Assembly: GCA_024349765.1 (NCBI GenBank)
Contig: AP026073.1
Location: forward strand, 5,022,001-5,086,000
From: Streptomyces nigrescens
Lineage (GTDB): Bacteria > Actinomycetota > Actinomycetes > Streptomycetales > Streptomycetaceae
Direction of reading: 5' to 3'
Length of the DNA: 64,000 bases
The stretch's first letter is position 1, and each line of letters begins with the position of its first letter. Shown in pieces: positions 42,941-51,277 of this stretch. Both the position numbers and the translations under genes were made by a program. A model generated the notes under the pieces. The model was given only the letters and a program-made list of their open reading frames with translations, was not told where the DNA came from and searched no databases.

Positions 42941-43256
42941 CGGCGGTCGCGGAGCCGAATCCCCTTACCTCACATATGCACCTGCCGTCGTCACGGACAC
43001 GCCGACACACGCTCCGCCAATCGGGTGGCCTTGTGTCCCGTCCGTGGTCCCGCGTGCGGCCGCTCGCTTCAATGAGTGGTACCGACGGTGGGTGCCCATC
43101 CCCTGGCGGGGACCACGGACGGCTGCCTGCACGATGCAGTCCGCTGTGCTTCTTCAGGGCACCCCCGGCAGGAGAGCGCGCTCGGCACAGGGTTCTGGCT
43201 GTGCGGCGCGACGGCCCCACCTCCCCAGCGGAGCCTTCGAAAGGGGCTGTCCAAAC
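42941..43256. other. 316-base leader region of the Ig-like gene
   Basis: No gene supported. Contains a 14-base perfect inverted repeat, CCGTCCGTGGTCCC (43038-43051) with GGGACCACGGACGG (43109-43122). The AAGGGG ribosome site of the downstream gene is at 43241-43246. The long structured leader might influence expression. Confidence 0.5.
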
Positions 43257-44678
43257 ATGGCACTCATCATCACCCTGACCCCGTCGACCGTCGCGGCGGG
43301 CCAGACCTTCACGGCAACGATCAGCGGTGCCAACGCGGGCGACACGCTCACCATCACGTACGACGCGCAACCGGCGCAGACGGTGGTCGCCGACGTCAAC
43401 GGCAACGCGACCGTGTCGTTCACCGCGACCACGTCGGGGCTGGTGGTTGCCACCGGCACGACAAGTGGAACGAGCGTGGCAACGCTCACCGTGACCACAT
43501 CGAACTGTGTGGTCACGGTGTCGTCCACGCCCGCCAACCCGACCGCCGGCCAGCCCGTCACCGTCACCGCCACCGTCACCTGCAACGGAGTCGCGGTCCC
43601 CGGCGCGGTCGTCACCTTCACCTCCGGCGGCGGCAGCCTCAATCTGGGCGCCGGCACCACCAATGCCTCCGGCCAGGCCAGCGTCACCAGCAGCGCACTG
43701 CCGGCCGGCGCCAACGTCGTCGTCGCCACCGTGGTCTCCGCCAGCACCACCTGCACCTGTGTCGGCGTCACCGGCACCGCAACCGTCAATGTCGCAGCGG
43801 CGACCAACTGTGTGGTCACCGTGTCCTCCACCCCCGCCAACCCGACCGCCGGCCAGCCCGTCACCGTCACCGCCACCGTCACCTGCAACGGAACCCCGGT
43901 CCCCGGCGCGGTCGTCACCTTCACCTCCGGCGGCGGCAGCCTCAATCTGGGCGCCGGCACCACCAATGCCTCCGGCCAGGCCAGCGTCACCAGCAGCGCG
44001 CTCCCGGCCGGCGCCAACGTCGTCGTCGCCACCGTGGTCTCCGCCGAGACCACCTGCACCTGCGTCGGCGTCGCCGGCACCGCGACCGTCAACGTCGGTG
44101 CGGCGCCCACCTGCGTGGTCACCGTGTCCTCGACGCCCGCCAACCCGACCGCCGGCCAGCCCGTCACCCTCACCGCCACCGTCACCTGCAACGGGGCCCC
44201 GGTTCCCGGCGCGATGGTGCTCTTCTCCACCTCCAGCGGTGCCCTGGGGGTCGGCACCACCAATGCCTCCGGACAGGCCAGCGTGACCACGAGTGCGCTG
44301 CCGGCCGGGGCCAACGTCGTCACCGCCACGGTGATCTCCTCTTCAGGCGCCTGCACCTGCACCGGTGTCTCCGGCACCGTGACGGTGAACGTCGGCGTGG
44401 GAACCCCCGTGCTGACCGCGAAGCCGGCCTGCTACGTGCTGAACTTCCCGCCGGTGCCCTGGGCGTTCGCGCACGCCACGTTCAGCGTGAGCGGCGCGAC
44501 CCCCGGATCGACGGTGACCTTCTCCGTGCTGGGAGGCACGGTGTGCACGGCCGTCGCCGACGCGTACGGCAACGCCTCCTGCACCGGCAACCTCAGCGTC
44601 ACGCAGGTGCTGGCCTCCAGCTACACCGCGACCAGCGGCGGGGTGACCGCCACCGGCAGCCTGAAGGCCTGCCTCTGA
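43257..44678 (+). CDS. Ig-like repeat protein with cysteine-bearing repeats, no signal peptide
   Basis: 473 residues, almost entirely beta-strand-prone. An N-terminal Ig-like unit (1-82) is followed by three near-identical units of about 101 residues (about 83-183, 184-284 and 285-381) and a distinct last unit (about 382-473). Each repeat reads CVVTVSSTPANPTAGQPVT, TATVTCNG, PGAVVTFTSGGG, TTNASGQASVT, CTCVGV, close to invasin/intimin-type bacterial Ig domains (Big_1). Each has four cysteines, 16 in all. The N-terminus (MALIITLTPSTVAAG) has no signal peptide, and no LPXTG or membrane anchor is visible, which is odd for such a protein. A terminator follows. Confidence 0.82.
   Translation: MALIITLTPSTVAAGQTFTATISGANAGDTLTITYDAQPAQTVVADVNGNATVSFTATTSGLVVATGTTSGTSVATLTVTTSNCVVTVSSTPANPTAGQPVTVTATVTCNGVAVPGAVVTFTSGGGSLNLGAGTTNASGQASVTSSALPAGANVVVATVVSASTTCTCVGVTGTATVNVAAATNCVVTVSSTPANPTAGQPVTVTATVTCNGTPVPGAVVTFTSGGGSLNLGAGTTNASGQASVTSSALPAGANVVVATVVSAETTCTCVGVAGTATVNVGAAPTCVVTVSSTPANPTAGQPVTLTATVTCNGAPVPGAMVLFSTSSGALGVGTTNASGQASVTTSALPAGANVVTATVISSSGACTCTGVSGTVTVNVGVGTPVLTAKPACYVLNFPPVPWAFAHATFSVSGATPGSTVTFSVLGGTVCTAVADAYGNASCTGNLSVTQVLASSYTATSGGVTATGSLKACL
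43503..44400. repeat. 303-base coding tandem repeats within the Ig-like gene
   Basis: Repeat starts at about 43503, 43806 and 44109, a constant 303-base spacing. The first two are almost identical at DNA level, including silent positions; the third has lost five codons and diverged more. This indicates recent duplication or ongoing gene conversion. Confidence 0.9.
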
Positions 44679-44693
44679 CACCCACCGCCCCAC

Positions 44694-44728
44694 AGCCGTC
44701 CCCCGTAACGCAACTACGGGGGACGGCT
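44694..44728. terminator. Bidirectional terminator
   Basis: AGCCGTCCCCCGTA (44694-44707) and TACGGGGGACGGCT (44715-44728) form a perfect 14-base stem with a 7-base loop between the converging Ig-like and DUF6314 genes. Confidence 0.88.
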
Positions 44729-44774
44729 GCTTGCCCTCAGGATAGGGGCGCGAGGTACGCCCTGACCGCCGTTC

Positions 44775-45314
44775 TCAGTCCGTCCGCCGCCGGTACACCG
44801 TGCGCAGCAGCTGCCGCTTGGCCGGGCCGGTGACCCGCCACTCCAGGTGCCATTCGTCGGCCGAGCGGACCGTGAAGGTCCCCTCGTAGCGGTCCTCGGC
44901 GCAGGGGTGGACGGGGGTCCAGCGGCCGGTGGTGAGGTCGAGGTCGTGGAAGGGCCGGCCGTCGGCGAAGTCGATCTCGGCGCTGCCGTCGGGGCGGGGC
45001 CGCAGGCGGAGCGTCCGGCTCGCCGGGTAGGCCGTGCCGTCCCAGGTCAGCTCGCCCTCCTCCACGTGCAGCAGCGCGCCGCCGGCCGGGTCGGGCCGGA
45101 AGTCGGCGGTTCCGTGGAAGCGGCCCTCGGTGCCGGTCCGCAGGTCGTGCACGGTGCGCTCGATGCTCCAGCGTCCCGACAGGTACCCGGCGACGTCGGG
45201 GACCGGGTGCAGCGACCCCTGGTGCGGGTCCGCCTCGTGCGCCTCCTCGTGCGGGTCCGCCTCGTGCGGGTCCGGAGCCTGCCGCTCCGCGTCTGCTGAC
45301 TGCGCGCTGGACAT
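44775..45314 (-). CDS. DUF6314-family protein
   Basis: 179 residues. After an acidic, His-rich N-terminal run of DPHEA-type repeats (about 13-32), a lipocalin-like single domain follows: VAGYLSGRWSIERTVHD, FHGTADFRPD, LLHVEEGELTW, ASRTLRLRP, EIDFADGRPFHDLDL, HPCAEDRYEGTFTV, EWRVTGPAKRQLLRTVYRR. This matches the small conserved domain now called DUF6314; function unknown. No export signal. The HE/D repeats are encoded by a GTGCGGGTCC-type DNA repeat and might bind metal. Confidence 0.75.
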   Translation of the reverse strand: MSSAQSADAERQAPDPHEADPHEEAHEADPHQGSLHPVPDVAGYLSGRWSIERTVHDLRTGTEGRFHGTADFRPDPAGGALLHVEEGELTWDGTAYPASRTLRLRPRPDGSAEIDFADGRPFHDLDLTTGRWTPVHPCAEDRYEGTFTVRSADEWHLEWRVTGPAKRQLLRTVYRRRTD

Positions 45315-45545
45315 GCCCCCATTCTCCCGTCCGCGCGGCCCGTCACCCCATCGGCCCCACCCGGGGCCCCGCCGCTCTCCGCCGGCCCTCCGTACCGTGC
45401 GGACCCGCGGTGGCGGTCTTACGCTCGGTGCAGTGATCGTCACGGAGGTGCGCACGGCGGCCGGACGGTGGCCGGGCGCCCCCGGACCGTCCGCCGTGCC
45501 CCGCGCTGCCGCCCCGTGAGCGCCCGGAGAACGAAAGGCACCACC

Positions 45546-47015
45546 ATGCCGGAGCTGTTCATCGGCGGTCAGTGGACCGCAGCGGCCGACGGACAGGTGC
45601 GGGAGATCCGCTGTCCGGCGGACGGCACGCTGGTCGCGACCGTCGACGAGGGCGGGCCGAAGGACGCCGCGGCGGCGATCAGCGCGGCCCGTACCGCCTT
45701 CGACGACGGCCCCTGGCCGCGCACACCGGCGGCCGAGCGCGGCCGGCTGGTGCTGCGCGTCGCCGAGCTGCTGCTGCGCGACAAGGACGCGCTGGCCAGG
45801 GCGGAATCGCTGGACACCGGCAAGCGGCTGGTGGAGAGCGAGTACGACATGGACGACATCGCCAACTGCTTCCGCTACTTCGGCAACCTCGCCGCGGCCG
45901 GCGGCACCGACCGGGTGGTGGACACCGGGATGGCGGAGACCGACAGCACGGTGCGGCACGAGCCGGTCGGGGTGTGCGCGCTGATCACCCCGTGGAACTA
46001 CCCGCTGCTGCAGACCGCGTGGAAGGTCGCGCCCGCACTGGCCGCCGGCAACACCTTCGTGCTCAAGCCCAGCGAGCTCACCCCGCACACCGCCGTCCAC
46101 CTGATGCGGCTGCTGGACGAGGCCGGGCTGCCGGCCGGTGCCGGCAATCTGGTGCTGGGCACCGGTCCGGTGGTGGGCGCGCCGCTGACCGAGGACCCGC
46201 GGGTGGACATGGTGTCGTTCACCGGCGGGCTGCTCACCGGGCGGCGGATCATGGCCGCGGCGGCGCCGACGGTGAAGAAGATCGCCCTGGAGCTGGGCGG
46301 GAAGAACCCGAACATCGTCTTCGCGGACGCGGACTTCGACACCGCGGTCGACTACGCCCTGACGGCGGTCTTCCTGCACTCCGGACAGGTCTGCTCGGCG
46401 GGCGCCCGGCTGCTGGTCCAGGAAACCCTGCACGACGCGTTCGTGGACGAACTGGTCTCGCGGGCCCAGCGGATCCGGCTGGGCGGGCCGTTCGACGAGC
46501 ACGCCCGCACCGGTCCGCTGATCTCGGCCGAGCACCGGGCCAAGGTCGAGGCGTATGTGGCGGCCGGGCTCGACGAGGGCGCGGTGCTGCTCTGCGGCGG
46601 CTCGGCGCCGGACGACCCGTCGCTGTCCAACGGCTACTACTACCTGCCGACGGTGCTGGACGAGTGCACGCCGGACATGTCCGTGATCCGCGACGAGTCG
46701 TTCGGCCCGGTGCTGACCGTCGAGCGGTTCCGGGACGAGGACGAGGCCGTCTCGCTCGCCAACGACACGGTCTACGGCCTGGCCGGGGCGGTGTGGACGC
46801 AGGACGGCGAGCGCGCGCACCGGGTCGCCGCGCGGCTGCGCGCCGGGACGGTCTGGATCAACGACTTCCACCCGTACGTGCCGCAGGCCGAGTGGGGCGG
46901 GATGAAGCAGTCCGGTGTGGGCCGGGAGCTGGGGCCGGCGGGGCTGGCGGAGTACCAGGAGGCCAAGCACGTCTGGCGCAATACCGCGCCACGGCCGCAG
47001 AGGTGGTTCGAATGA
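45546..47015 (+). CDS. Aldehyde dehydrogenase, betaine-aldehyde type
   Basis: 489 residues, NAD(P)+-dependent. Motifs: ITPWNYPLLQTAWKVAPALAAGN, KPSELTP, FTGGLLTGRRIM, the general base Glu249 in LELGGKNP and nucleophile Cys283 in SGQVCSAG, ending with WGGMKQSGVGRELG. First gene of a three-gene operon with an amine permease and a choline-dehydrogenase-like GMC enzyme, so betaine aldehyde to glycine betaine is the best guess, supporting osmoprotection or use of choline. ATG with GAACGAAAGG upstream; the stop overlaps the permease start. Confidence 0.88.
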   Translation: MPELFIGGQWTAAADGQVREIRCPADGTLVATVDEGGPKDAAAAISAARTAFDDGPWPRTPAAERGRLVLRVAELLLRDKDALARAESLDTGKRLVESEYDMDDIANCFRYFGNLAAAGGTDRVVDTGMAETDSTVRHEPVGVCALITPWNYPLLQTAWKVAPALAAGNTFVLKPSELTPHTAVHLMRLLDEAGLPAGAGNLVLGTGPVVGAPLTEDPRVDMVSFTGGLLTGRRIMAAAAPTVKKIALELGGKNPNIVFADADFDTAVDYALTAVFLHSGQVCSAGARLLVQETLHDAFVDELVSRAQRIRLGGPFDEHARTGPLISAEHRAKVEAYVAAGLDEGAVLLCGGSAPDDPSLSNGYYYLPTVLDECTPDMSVIRDESFGPVLTVERFRDEDEAVSLANDTVYGLAGAVWTQDGERAHRVAARLRAGTVWINDFHPYVPQAEWGGMKQSGVGRELGPAGLAEYQEAKHVWRNTAPRPQRWFE

Positions 47016-48628
47016 CCGGCCCCGGCCCGTCCCGCCCGGAACCCGGTAACGACCACGCCCAGGGGAACGACCCCGCGCACGGGGACGAGCACGAGCACGA
47101 CGACGCCTCGCTCGCCGAGCTCGGCTACAAGCCGGAACTCAAGCGCACACTGGGCAACTTCCACACCTTCGCCGCCGGGATCAGCTACATCTCCATCCTG
47201 ACCGGCACCTTCCAGCTGTTCTACTTCGGTGTCGCGCACGGCGGCCCGGCCTACTGGTGGTCCTGGCCGATGGTGTTCGTCGGCCAGCTGATGGTGGCGC
47301 TGTGCTTCTGCGAGCTGGCCGCCCGGTATCCGGTGGCCGGTTCGATCTACAACTGGTCCAAGCAGCTGGGCGGTCCGCACGTCGGCTGGCTCGGCGGCTG
47401 GCTGATGCTGACCGCGTCGATGGTGTCGCTGTCCGCGGTGGCGCTGGCCTACCAGGTCACGCTGCCGCAGATCTCCTCGTGGTTCCAGTTCATCGGTGAC
47501 GGCACCGGGAAGTCCGCGGCCGCCAACGCCGTCCTGCTCGGCACCGTCCTGGTCGCCTTCACCACCCTGGTCAACGCCTTCGGCGTGAAGCTGATGGCCC
47601 GGATCAACTCCGCGGGGGTGGCGATCGAGCTGATCGCCGCGGTCGTCCTGGTGCTGCTGCTCGCCGCGCACGTCACCCGCGGCCCGAGCGCGGTCACCGA
47701 CACCTTCGGCCTCGGCCAGGGAGAGACCCTCGGCTATTTCGGCGCGTTCCTCACCGCGTCCCTGGCCTCGGCGTACGTCATGTACGGCTTCGACACCGCC
47801 TCGTCGCTCGGCGAGGAGTCCAAGGACCCCGGCCGCAACGCCCCGCGCGCGATCCTGCGGGCCCTGATCGCGTCCTTCCTGATCGGCGGACTGATCCTGC
47901 TCTTCGCCCTGCTGGCGGTACCGGACCTGCACGCCAAGGAGCTGTCGGTGGACGGCCTCCAGTACGTCGTACTGGCCACCCTCGGTTCGACGATCGGGCA
48001 GATCGTGCTGTGGTGCGTGGTCATCGCGATCACGGTGTGCGAGCTGGCGGTGCACACCGCGGGCATCCGGCTGGCGTTCGCCATGGCCCGGGACAACAAC
48101 CTGCCGGCCGCCTCGCTGCTGGCCAAGGTCAGCCCGCGGTTCCAGACGCCGGTGCTGCCCGCGATCATCATCGGGCTGGTGGCGGTCGGCATCCTGTTCC
48201 TCAACGTCAACCAGCCGCAGATCTTCTCGGTGATCACCAGCATCGCGATCATCATGATCTACCTGGCGTACCTGGCGGTGACGCTGCCGATGCTGGTGCA
48301 GCGGCTGCGCGGCAACTGGACGCCGCTCAAGGGCAAGTTCTCGCTGGGCAGGTTCGGGCTCCCGGTCAACGTCCTGGCGGTGCTGTGGGGCGCGGGCATG
48401 TCCCTCAACCTCGCCTGGCCGCGCGCCGCGGTCTACAACGCGACCGGCCCGCAGCACTGGTACCTGCGCTGGGGCGCGTTCCTGTTCATCGGCGTCGTCG
48501 CGCTCGGCGGCTTCGCCTACTACTGGTTCGTCCAGCGCAAGAAGACCGGTGTGCTGGCCATGCACGCCGCCGAGCTCCCCGACGACACCCTGCCGGGCGG
48601 CCCGGGCACCCCTCCCTCCTCCCCCTGA
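47012..48628 (+). CDS. APC-superfamily amine/amino-acid permease
   Basis: 538 residues, about 12 to 14 membrane helices after a His/Asp/Glu-rich cytoplasmic N-terminus (about 10-35). APC marks: FAAGISYISILTGTFQLF, ELAARYPVAGSIYNWSKQLGG, YGFDTASSLGEESKDPGRNAPRAI. Related to GABA, choline or ethanolamine permeases. Its start overlaps the aldehyde dehydrogenase stop (ATGA), and the GMC oxidoreductase follows, so uptake of choline or a related amine for the flanking enzymes is the natural reading. Substrate unproven. Confidence 0.87.
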   Translation: MTGPGPSRPEPGNDHAQGNDPAHGDEHEHDDASLAELGYKPELKRTLGNFHTFAAGISYISILTGTFQLFYFGVAHGGPAYWWSWPMVFVGQLMVALCFCELAARYPVAGSIYNWSKQLGGPHVGWLGGWLMLTASMVSLSAVALAYQVTLPQISSWFQFIGDGTGKSAAANAVLLGTVLVAFTTLVNAFGVKLMARINSAGVAIELIAAVVLVLLLAAHVTRGPSAVTDTFGLGQGETLGYFGAFLTASLASAYVMYGFDTASSLGEESKDPGRNAPRAILRALIASFLIGGLILLFALLAVPDLHAKELSVDGLQYVVLATLGSTIGQIVLWCVVIAITVCELAVHTAGIRLAFAMARDNNLPAASLLAKVSPRFQTPVLPAIIIGLVAVGILFLNVNQPQIFSVITSIAIIMIYLAYLAVTLPMLVQRLRGNWTPLKGKFSLGRFGLPVNVLAVLWGAGMSLNLAWPRAAVYNATGPQHWYLRWGAFLFIGVVALGGFAYYWFVQRKKTGVLAMHAAELPDDTLPGGPGTPPSSP

Positions 48629-48642
48629 CTGGAGACGGCCCG

Positions 48643-50205
48643 ATGTCCCAAGAGATCCCTGCGGACGAGTTCGACTACGTCGTGGTCGGTGGCGGCACGG
48701 CCGGCGCGGTCGTGGCGGCCCGGCTCAGCGAGGACCCCGCGGTCACCGTGTGCCTGCTGGAGGCCGGCCCGAGCGACGTCGGCGACGACAACATCCTGCG
48801 GCTGGACCGCTGGATGGGCCTGCTGGAGTCCGGCTACGACTGGGACTATCCGGTCGAGCCGCAGGAGAACGGCAACAGCTTCATGCGGCACGCCCGCGCC
48901 AAGGTGCTGGGCGGCTGTTCCTCGCACAACTCCTGCATCGCCTTCTGGGCACCCGCCGAGGACCTCGACGAGTGGGCCGCGCTGGGCTGCACGGGCTGGC
49001 ACTCCCGGGACACCTTCCCGCTCTACACGCGCCTGGAGAGCAATGACGCACCCGGTGACCACCACGGCCGCACCGGCCCGGTCACCCTGCGCACCGTCCC
49101 GCCGCACGACCCCTGCGGGGTGGCCCTGCTGGAGGCGTGCGCGGCGTCCGGGATCCCCACCACCCCGTTCAACACCGGCCGGACCGTCGTCCGCGGCGCC
49201 AACTGGTTCCAGATCAACTGCCGCCCCGACGGCACCCGTTCCTCGTCCTCGGTGTCCTACCTCCACCCCGTCATGGGCACCCGCGGCAATCTGGACGTCC
49301 GCACCGGGCTCCAGGCCAAGCGGCTGACCTTCGACCCGGACCGGCGGTGCACCGGTGTGGACTACCTGGCCCCGGACCTGATCCGCACCCACGGCGTACG
49401 CGCCCGCCGCGAGGTCATCGTCTCCTGCGGCGCCATCGACACCCCGAAACTGCTGATGCTCTCCGGCATCGGCCCGGCCGACCACCTCCGCGACGTCGGC
49501 GTGGACGTGCTGCTCGACTCCCCCGGTGTCGGCGCGAACCTCCAGGACCACCCGGAGGGCGTGATCATGTGGGAGGCCAAGCAGCCGATGGTCACCTCGT
49601 CGACGCAGTGGTGGGAGATCGGCATCTTCGTCGACACCGAGCCGGGCCTGGACCGCCCGGACCTGATGTTCCACTACGGCTCGGTGCCGTTCGACCTGAA
49701 CACCTACCGCCGCGGCTACCCCACCTCGGAGAACGCCTTCTGCCTCACCCCGAACGTCACCCGCGCCCGCTCCCTGGGCACCGTGCGCCTGCGCACCCGG
49801 GACTTCCGCGACAAGCCGAGGGTCGATCCGCGCTACTTCACCCACGAGCACGACGTCCGGGTGATGCTGCACGGCCTGCGGCTGGCCCGCGAGATCGTCG
49901 CCCAGGCCCCGATGGCCGACTGGGCCGGCCCGGAACTCGCGCCGGGCTCCTCCGCCCGGTCCGACGCCGAGCTGCTGGACTACGTCCGCGCCACCCACAA
50001 CACCGTCTACCACCCCGCCTGCACGGTCCACATGGGCGCCCCCGACGACCCGGCCGCCCCGCTCGACCCGGAACTGCGGGTCAAGGGCGTCAGCGGACTG
50101 CGGGTGGCCGACGGCTCCGCGATGCCGTTCCTGCCGGCCGTGAACCCGTGCATCACCACGATGATGATCGGCGAGAAGTGCGCCGACCTGATCCGCGCCA
50201 CATGA
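48643..50205 (+). CDS. GMC-family FAD oxidoreductase, choline-dehydrogenase-like
   Basis: 520 residues. FAD-binding YVVVGGGTAGAVVAARLSE (12-30) and LLEAGPSD, GMC signature 1 near ARAKVLGGCSSHNSCIAFW, signature 2 ARREVIVSCGAIDTPKLLMLSGIGP, and the catalytic region NTVYHPACTVHMG plus NPCITTMMIGEKCADLI. Oxidises an alcohol to an aldehyde, which the operon's aldehyde dehydrogenase would then oxidise; choline to betaine aldehyde fits best. Last gene of the operon. A TPP riboswitch on the opposite strand starts only 36 bases beyond its stop. Confidence 0.88.
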   Translation: MSQEIPADEFDYVVVGGGTAGAVVAARLSEDPAVTVCLLEAGPSDVGDDNILRLDRWMGLLESGYDWDYPVEPQENGNSFMRHARAKVLGGCSSHNSCIAFWAPAEDLDEWAALGCTGWHSRDTFPLYTRLESNDAPGDHHGRTGPVTLRTVPPHDPCGVALLEACAASGIPTTPFNTGRTVVRGANWFQINCRPDGTRSSSSVSYLHPVMGTRGNLDVRTGLQAKRLTFDPDRRCTGVDYLAPDLIRTHGVRARREVIVSCGAIDTPKLLMLSGIGPADHLRDVGVDVLLDSPGVGANLQDHPEGVIMWEAKQPMVTSSTQWWEIGIFVDTEPGLDRPDLMFHYGSVPFDLNTYRRGYPTSENAFCLTPNVTRARSLGTVRLRTRDFRDKPRVDPRYFTHEHDVRVMLHGLRLAREIVAQAPMADWAGPELAPGSSARSDAELLDYVRATHNTVYHPACTVHMGAPDDPAAPLDPELRVKGVSGLRVADGSAMPFLPAVNPCITTMMIGEKCADLIRAT

Positions 50206-50241
50206 CCCCGTGGGTGCCACCCCCTGCGCGCACATCAAAGA

Positions 50242-50415
50242 CCTACGAGGTGGGCTCCCTTCGCCGGCATGGTCCGGATCAGGTGCTTGGGGGTCGCCGT
50301 CCGGTCCGCATGACCTTTCAGCCTCTCAGCCCGACCTTCACTCGCGTCCTCGGCGAGAACCGAAGTCCTCGTTGCGAGGTCCGCTCCAATCGGACTCCCT
50401 CGCTCGCCCCGTAGG
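50242..50415 (-). promoter_or_regulatory. TPP (thiamin pyrophosphate) riboswitch, orphan
   Basis: On the minus strand the conserved thi-box elements occur in the right order: GGGAGTCC, GGCTGAGAGG (50321-50331), CACCTGATCC (50275-50284) and CATGCCGGCGAAGGGAG (50254-50270). P1 closes with CCTACG (50410-50415) and CGTAGG (50242-50247); P2 with GTCCGA (50390-50395) and TCGGGC (50329-50334); P4 with CCGG/CCGG around ACCATG. The P2 arm carries about 55 extra bases. A TATCCT at 50425-50430 could be its -10. No thiamin gene follows: leftward transcription runs into the 3' end of the GMC gene, antisense. Confidence 0.88.
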
Positions 50416-50539
50416 CCGGTCTTCAGGATACTCCCGACGAAAGGGTATGGAACAGGTCAGGAGCCTCTTTTTCGGATAATTTCCGACATCCCCCGCGACC
50501 ATCCCTCCACGCGCCTCCCAGACGCCCCAGAAATGCAGA

Positions 50540-50563
50540 AAACCCCTGGTCAACCAGGGGTTT
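50540..50563 (-). terminator. Terminator of tRNA-Leu
   Basis: AAACCCCTGG, TTGA, CCAGGGGTTT read on the minus strand, 10 paired bases followed by T residues, 15 bases beyond the tRNA 3' end. A classical intrinsic terminator. Confidence 0.85.
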
Positions 50564-50577
50564 CCAGGGGTTCTCAG

Positions 50578-50665
50578 TGGTGTCCGAGGGGGGACTTGAA
50601 CCCCCACGCCCGATAAAGGGCACTAGCACCTCAAGCTAGCGCGTCTGCCATTCCGCCACCCGGAC
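50578..50665 (-). tRNA. tRNA-Leu (anticodon GAG)
   Basis: Minus strand GTCCGGGTGGCGGAATGGCA opens a class II tRNA: acceptor GTCCGGG pairs with CTCGGAC (one G-T), the anticodon arm is CTAGC-TTGAGGT-GCTAG giving GAG, a long variable arm (CCCTTTATCGGG) is present as expected for Leu, the T arm is GGGGGTTCAAGTCCCCC, and CCA is encoded (50578-50580). Length 88 with CCA. Confidence 0.96.
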
Positions 50666-50750
50666 TAGGTGTGATCTTCGCGGGGCGTTTCCCGCGGCGA
50701 CGTGGACAACCATACCAAGGTTTCGGAGTGCCTTTCACCTGCGGATCCGC

Positions 50751-51277
50751 GGGGCGCTGCGCTTGGCTTTGCCTCCCACGTACCTGGCCGTCCCGCCGCG
50801 GGGCTCGCTCACCGTTGCGCTTTGCGGCGCCCCGCACGTACCCGTCTCTCCCGCCGTCGGGCTTGTTCGCCGTTGCGCCTGGCGGCGGGCGTTTGTGTGT
50901 CGGGTGCGGTGCCGGCCCTCCAGACTTCGTCCTCCGGTCCAGCCCCTCCCGTGAGTGGGAGGTGAGGGGCCGGTGGGGGCGTGCGTTGTCTTTTGCCTGC
51001 GGGCGCGTGGGCATTACGTGCACCCCCACCGTCCTTCACTTCCCCCCAACGGGAGGGGACGGGCCGGAGGGGCCGGTTGTGTGGACGTAAAGCGTCAGCA
51101 GTCCACACAACCGGCCCCGGAGGCCCGTCACCGCACCCAACAACCACCCAGCCCGCCGCAGGCGCAACGGCGAGCAAGACCCGCGGCGGGAGAGACGGGT
51201 ACGTGGGAGGCGCCGCAAAGCGCAGCGCCCCGCGGCGGGAAAGCCAGGTACGTGGGCGGCAAAAGCCACGCGCAACG
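50751..51277. repeat. Large palindromic repeat element beside tRNA-Leu
   Basis: A roughly 50-base unit of the type CCGCGGCGGGAGAGACGGGT-ACGTGGGAGGC occurs four times: twice rightward (51181-51229, 51230-51277) and twice inverted (about 50751-50802 and 50803-50862). Between lie an 18-base perfect hairpin (51069-51086 with 51101-51118), a CCCCTCCC/GGGAGGTGAGGGG stem near 50943-50970 and a GGTGGGGGC/GCCCCCACC-like pair. The whole region can fold on itself and abuts the stop of the chorismate mutase gene. No coding evidence. Confidence 0.8.

Follow-up and report, generated by a model that had tools for sequence, protein, structure and literature searches.

A minus-strand TPP aptamer in Streptomyces nigrescens is best read, from its sequence and that of its relatives, as a small RNA gene and not as a detached riboswitch. 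The whole reading, in which an autonomously transcribed TPP-sensing RNA is predicted to act in trans, was given a probability of about 0.6. Its observed basis comprises the conservation of the RNA as a unit, the pairing of its helices, the promoter-like sequence ahead of it, the changing neighbors, and the repeated loss of the TPP core elsewhere in Streptomyces. Coordinates refer to the window, the whole stretch of 64,000 nucleotides that was analyzed.

The element is confirmed as a TPP aptamer with pocket motifs, a P4/P5 arm, and a 14-pair P1, running from P1 to P1′ at 50240..50420 (-). The intact minus-strand aptamer that a first-pass annotation had placed at 50242-50415 was thereby borne out, with its motifs and its P1, P2, and P4 pairings all present. 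Along the RNA, P1 and P2 are followed by a long P3 arm, then by CUGAGA and a hairpin, and lastly by the P4/P5 arm with GCG. Pair counts on alignment A1 placed the 5′ strand of P1, including the family-specific GCGAGYGA segment, at 50402..50417 (-) and the 3′ strand, with the terminal letters CTCGTAGGTC, at 50240..50255 (-); the 14 pairs counted in the alignment of 18 relatives join GGCCUACGGGGC-G-AGC with GCCCACCUCGUAGGUC. The lineage-specific P3 arm (50330..50395, -) is an irregular helix of a type kept in most Streptomyces members and diverged in the lineage of the window. The pyrimidine-binding motif CUGAGA was read from the sequence at 50324..50329 (-) and occurs, as CUGAGAG, in every one of the 81 members scanned among the matches listed; L021, one of the 18 aligned relatives, has AUGAGA in its place. 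The P4/P5 arm with the GCG pyrophosphate-binding motif (50258..50283, -) was located by the RF00059 match, the alignment, and the family model. The window copy is predicted with good confidence to bind TPP.

Covariance model R1, built from the 18 relatives, gave the window element 163 bits (E ~1e-43) and placed it at 50420-50240 (-). The covariance search with the TPP family proposed in the first-pass annotation did return a match in a 701-base search at a permissive threshold (RF00059, 50361-50239 (-), 37.8 bits, E 9.2e-6), but under the gathering score of 54.3 bits, so a default Rfam scan of the window shows the tRNA only. The same low score may be why no annotation of this RNA was found. 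None of the 18 family members reached the gathering score with RF00059, 15 of them scoring 29.7-43.3 bits and three having no match at E<=0.1. As the printed RF00059 alignment begins within the presumed P3 arm, Rfam probably misplaces the 5′ side of the element.

RNAalifold on the 18-relative alignment gave 41 pairs, and for 16 of these one or more compensatory sequences were present. Across the 81 members among the matches listed, 97.9% of cells pair in the consensus structure, and both sides changed in 15 of 34 pairs compared to a shuffled mean of 5.9 and at most 4 in slid versions. The covarying pairs in these listed members fell in P1 (nine), the hairpin after CUGAGA (five), and P3 (one), with no covariation in P2, P4, or P5. 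The invariance of P4 and P5 reflects how the members were collected: the 80 named relatives (81 with the window) are among the matches listed of a scan for the P4/P5 GCG pattern, such that full cores are over-represented in them and they offer no independent test of the GCG motif. Folding energy of the window element was ordinary (z -0.75; 41 of 200 shuffles fold equally well) and was dropped as an uninformative line of evidence.

A tRNA-Leu(GAG) gene identified by the default Rfam scan (50578..50665, -) is the upstream neighbor on the same strand and is followed by a hairpin and T-run read from the sequence (50538..50563, -) that likely separates the tRNA from the RNA gene. On the downstream side, 34 nt separate the element from the stop codon (50203-50205) of a convergent GMC oxidoreductase gene, which is choline-dehydrogenase-like by profile search (48643..50205, +). 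Long inverted repeats occupy 50747-51235 between tRNA-Leu and a chorismate-mutase gene, for example 50813-50921 with 51119-51227 (109 nt, 82% complementary), and sequence resembling them was seen by eye beside tRNA-Leu in L092. The order tRNA-Leu/RNA/GMC recurs in L092; other lineages have other neighbors.

No thiamin gene was seen on the minus strand near the element, where the convergent GMC gene lies instead, as the first-pass annotation had stated; a hidden minus-strand thiamin gene, which it had named as evidence against its own view, was looked for and none was seen. The annotation had offered a rearrangement next to the tRNA as the event that parted a thiamin riboswitch from its gene and left it decaying or newly stranded. 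The intact pocket, the missing downstream thiamin gene, and the adjoining tRNA gene all agree with such an event, but it is highly improbable given that a gene-less, promoter-bearing RNA occurs at different places in about one third of the Streptomyces sampled and in other genera, that the 163-bit match ties the window copy to this family, and that the lineage of the window keeps the RNA while its flanks diverge. Also against it are three further TPP elements in this genome, which lie ahead of thiO, thiC, and a thiamine ABC transporter gene, each of these loci having its own.

The family to which the small RNA gene belongs was found by its model at >100 bits in 88 of 295 Streptomyces genomes, with one copy per genome among the matches listed; ordinary thiamin riboswitches in the Streptomyces sample scored only ~43-49 bits under the same model. 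An order-level sample sharing some genomes with the former contained matches in 91 of 293 genomes at E<=1e-12, six of the 91 being from another family. Members carried the labels Kitasatospora, Actinacidiphila, Kribbella, and Actinopolymorpha, along with unclassified actinobacterial assemblies. Two full-length copies of the RNA were observed in G046 from another family of the order (C31 61462-61637 and C23 41503-41668), and some copies in related genomes of that family have damaged TPP cores (L016, L021, and L023). Phylum-wide, matches occurred in 37 of 396 genomes at E<=1e-10; inspection of 18 of these loci revealed 13 that resemble ordinary riboswitches just ahead of a start codon, one shortened Streptomyces member (L185), and four whose long closing helix resembles that of the orphan type (L186, L188, L195, and L196). 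The latter four represent a different long-P1 TPP element from a family in another class of the phylum and have OsdR-like boxes.

Promoter-like sequence precedes the aptamer and is conserved with it. A -10 element TATCCT (50425..50430, -) lies 7 bases ahead of the P1 helix and is kept in 64 aligned relatives; it is preceded across a 16-nt spacer by a -35-like TTCCAT (50447..50452, -), the TT of which is conserved in these 64, and by an A-tract at the position of an UP element (50468..50472, -), conserved 38-42 nt before the -10 in the same set. The 64 members aligned on the -10 thus share a block of A-tract, TTYCRT-like -35, 15-16 bases, TATCCT, and P1, with a -10 to P1 distance of 7-8 bases in 59 of them, and their conservation per column sinks to background ~12 nt beyond P1′. 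Comparison of the window with L092, L102, and L086 gave RNA identities of 99, 86, and 86%, compared to 0.87, 0.60, and 0.54 in the upstream flank and 0.61, 0.51, and 0.46 in the downstream flank (shuffled 0.51 for both). The 52-nt promoter region gave 0.83, 0.64, and 0.57 in the same order, and the identity of just 57-64% to L102 and L086 indicates that its conserved part consists of few positions. Selection on the element, as argued in the first-pass annotation, is supported, and these sequences make it very probable that the window element is an independent RNA gene.

Sequence beyond P1 contributes little to the conserved unit. A terminator hairpin after P1 was rejected as a general feature, being barely above shuffled sequence (43/105 versus 32/105 below -20 kcal/mol). 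Neither a recognizable expression platform behind the window element nor a same-strand thiamin gene, the two features that would identify a cis-riboswitch, was found in the window. The RNA might instead control a short reading frame right downstream, as an ATG or GTG often follows 6-8 nt past P1 and a weakly conserved YTTC..GTG is present there, but this is hardly credible: information is at background past ~+12, so that no conserved peptide follows, and the window's own frame crosses the GMC gene in antisense orientation. A peptide after P1 was accordingly rejected.

The genes beside the RNA differ between members. By a reading-frame heuristic (codon-position G+C), the nearest downstream frame among the matches listed was KstR-like in 27/81 members, a cysteine desulfurase in 11/81, and a GMC oxidoreductase in 4/81 including the window, each cluster being named from one profiled representative; that of the KstR-like cluster matched the KstR model at 204.7 bits, under the cut-off of 280. 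In 23/23 loci whose genomes lack a strong match beside the KstR gene, including the genome of the window, no motif of the RNA was found within 420 nt of that gene. The differing neighbors and the empty KstR sites therefore indicate that the unit occupies different places in different lineages. One Streptomyces group has the RNA between cysteine desulfurase and MnmA-like genes and on the opposite strand to both (L080, L101, L111, L048, and L071 on both sides, L082 on the upstream side), the MnmA-like genes forming an upstream cluster. Nineteen members among the matches listed have a same-strand nearest frame, of which 12 were assigned to a Pfam family, all 12 assignments being different (RamC kinase, amylase, aldehyde dehydrogenase, cold-shock, PNPOx, CBS, baeRF, and others), and seven to none; no thiamin-related gene was among the 12, nor was any thiamin gene found among the neighbors identified in the three named clusters and the 19 profiled same-strand genes.

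Convergent neighbors raise the alternative of a cis antisense role, in which TPP would set a stop at P1 versus read-through into the convergent gene, here that for GMC oxidoreductase. Riboswitch-controlled antisense RNAs are known (PMC8383071). Among the matches listed, 56 of the 78 members called by the heuristic, and three more (the window, L092, and L102), have an opposite-strand nearest frame, and a short pyrimidine run often comes after the long P1. Nevertheless, this role is unlikely in view of the variation of the neighbor by lineage, the 19 listed members with a same-strand nearest frame, a P1 that seems too stable for switching, and conservation that ends about 12 nt past P1. The first-pass annotation had proposed an antisense or short non-coding transcript over a betaine operon. 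A short non-coding RNA would agree with the present reading, but the specific operon role found no support, as the neighbor differs between lineages and the GMC product scored 395 bits against the curated choline dehydrogenase model, under its cut-off of 605. The GMC gene stands behind amino-acid permease and aldehyde dehydrogenase genes in a plus-strand run (43044-50205: Ig-like-domain protein, aldehyde dehydrogenase, amino-acid permease, and GMC oxidoreductase), for which "betaine operon" is a plausible though unproven name.

Some relatives of the small RNA gene carry a further signal. A matrix built from 26 published Streptomyces coelicolor sites (PMC5069765, section 7) identified an OsdR-like box, at positions -46 to -52 relative to the element, in 12/27 members of other RNA types compared to 0/58 Streptomyces-type members, a split made by hand from RNA and promoter type after the box had been noticed by eye; downstream control stretches reached the box score in 2/27, and members with <120 bases upstream were left out. 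Eight of the 27 other-type members are labeled Streptomyces, one of which (L110) has the box. An OsdR box was rejected at this position for the Streptomyces-type members, and for the window promoter, where the best score was -6.49. Genes near other-type members include those for a universal stress protein (L110), phosphoribosyltransferase (L087), Hsp20 (L100), baeRF (L044), PNPOx (L097), and GAF-ANTAR (L021). In the box-carrying relatives, the RNA is probably also switched by a dormancy/low-oxygen regulator.

The same relatives bear on whether the family was at its root a cis leader of dormancy-type genes, from which the Streptomyces copies would be derived or degenerate. L188 lies 21 nt ahead of a same-strand phosphoribosyltransferase-like/hydrolase gene and L088 (4088-4248, an actinobacterial assembly) is leader-like just ahead of a same-strand CBS-domain gene; cis control is possible in both because they directly precede these genes. 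Along with L044, which is followed by a baeRF gene, and the OsdR-like boxes of this section of the family, they give this origin some footing, but it is quite unlikely when set against same-strand genes that vary among the listed members (12 Pfam assignments in 19, seven without any) and a Streptomyces unit that is conserved without a same-strand gene and includes core-less forms.

These core-less forms separate the parts of the small RNA. At least 12 Streptomyces members (L185 and L213-L223), a lower bound among the matches listed, are without P4/P5 and have CUGAGA altered or gone, in several ways, and all 12 retain the promoter, P1, and the P3 arm. The core-less label needs eight changes on the protein tree of the KstR-like neighbor, and at least three core losses are forced by branches passing both support limits on that tree, for which the bootstrap was not settled. 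Seven core-less representatives were 78% identical in 5′ P1 plus the P3 arm and 86% in 3′ P1, with 58% in the promoter region (45 nt), 55% downstream, and 51% further upstream. With the core lost and P1 and P3 kept, an output body (P1/P3) can be told apart from an input that the RNA can do without (the TPP core); decay plus short divergence could imitate part of this pattern. The window copy retains the TPP core and its P3 arm differs from the conserved type.

Two further alternatives are weighed by the core-less members. An RNA that is mainly a structural 3′-end element, a terminator or roadblock between convergent genes with the TPP fold a relic, would explain its frequent position between gene ends, the strong P1, and the absence of the core from at least 12 Streptomyces members; it is rendered improbable by features that a terminator does not need, i.e. 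the promoter-like sequence and OsdR-like boxes, CUGAGA in the 81 scanned members among the matches listed, and a P3 arm kept in the core-less members. An abundant RNA serving as a TPP sink or buffer, which takes up and gives off TPP and has no target, is consistent with the promoter and its A-tract, the intact pocket, and the lack of a visible platform. It is very unlikely, as the core-less members keep the promoter and P3 arm and TPP binding is therefore not the sole function retained.

For the small RNA gene, the following mechanism is proposed from the sequence features. RNA polymerase would use a promoter belonging to the RNA itself and probably start no more than a few bases from P1, giving a product of about 180-200 nt with its ends closed by the long P1 helix. 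The complete TPP pocket would serve as input and the P3 arm is the candidate output; bound TPP may alter how stable the RNA is or how far its P3 arm is exposed, and the RNA would act in trans on some RNA or protein. Weighed against a cis role or a sink, trans action is rated as less secure than the independent gene and TPP binding. A 12-base target pattern from a Streptomyces P3-arm segment had 56 places in 15 genomes versus 101 for the reversed control, and 30 of the 56 that were compared comprised eight cases of the RNA gene itself, one shared site (L272 and L278), and otherwise single sites; a conserved complementary target was rejected for lack of a broadly recurring site in the 15 genomes.

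A broader interpretation, put at even odds, is that the Actinobacteria have widespread free-standing TPP-aptamer RNA genes that would sense TPP, be dormancy-regulated in several lineages, and act in trans, and that in Streptomyces the sensor was deleted on several occasions, which released the output body of P1 plus the P3 arm from TPP and yielded metabolite-independent small RNAs. Nothing recognized as a description of this RNA family was found in the literature searched, from which subscription papers and preprints were outside the scope, including PMC8079986, PMC5069765, PMC9544697, PMC7824784, PMC8383071, PMC8388888, PMC3765725, and PMC11678152. S. lividans has been described with two TPP elements, each with genes, and a S. 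ambofaciens paper mentions TPP riboswitches in its supplement. What defines a riboswitch is the gene that follows it; if the present reading is true, a conserved TPP aptamer is here its own gene. It would then show a riboswitch turning into an independent regulator, with intermediates that kept or lost the sensor in living species, and would connect vitamin B1 status with regulation other than that of thiamin synthesis, as well as, in relatives, with the dormancy regulon.

The RNA shares with RF00059 (THI element) the CUGAGA pyrimidine pocket, the GCG pyrophosphate site in P4/P5, and the P2/P3 layout, the roles of these motifs in TPP riboswitches having been described (PMC9544697; PMC7824784). 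It differs in the absence of a downstream thiamin gene and recognizable expression platform, its own promoter-like sequence, a 14-pair P1 with the conserved GCGAGYGA, a long lineage-specific P3 arm, and a score below the cut-off. A resemblance to the OsdR/DevR dormancy regulon, for which the consensus and sites have been published (PMC5069765), is seen in the boxes of 12/27 other-type members and in the Usp, Hsp20, phosphoribosyltransferase, baeRF, and PNPOx genes near some of them, whereas the box is missing from the Streptomyces-type count (0/58) and the window copy. SroA of Salmonella is the leader of a thiamin transporter operon and, unlike it, this RNA precedes no such operon. SroA has also been described as an sRNA that shares the structural features of riboswitches (PMC8383071), and the same source describes Listeria SreA/SreB (SAM) and Rli55 and EutX (B12) as trans-acting riboswitch RNAs, with SreA and SreB derived from leaders. 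The RNA described here would work like SreA, Rli55, and EutX, and its membership of this group is putative: as with SreA/SreB, Rli55, and EutX, it would be a ligand-binding riboswitch RNA, for which a distant target is a possibility, and it is distinguished from SreA/SreB by having no recognized associated gene, varied locations, and derivatives that exist without the sensor.
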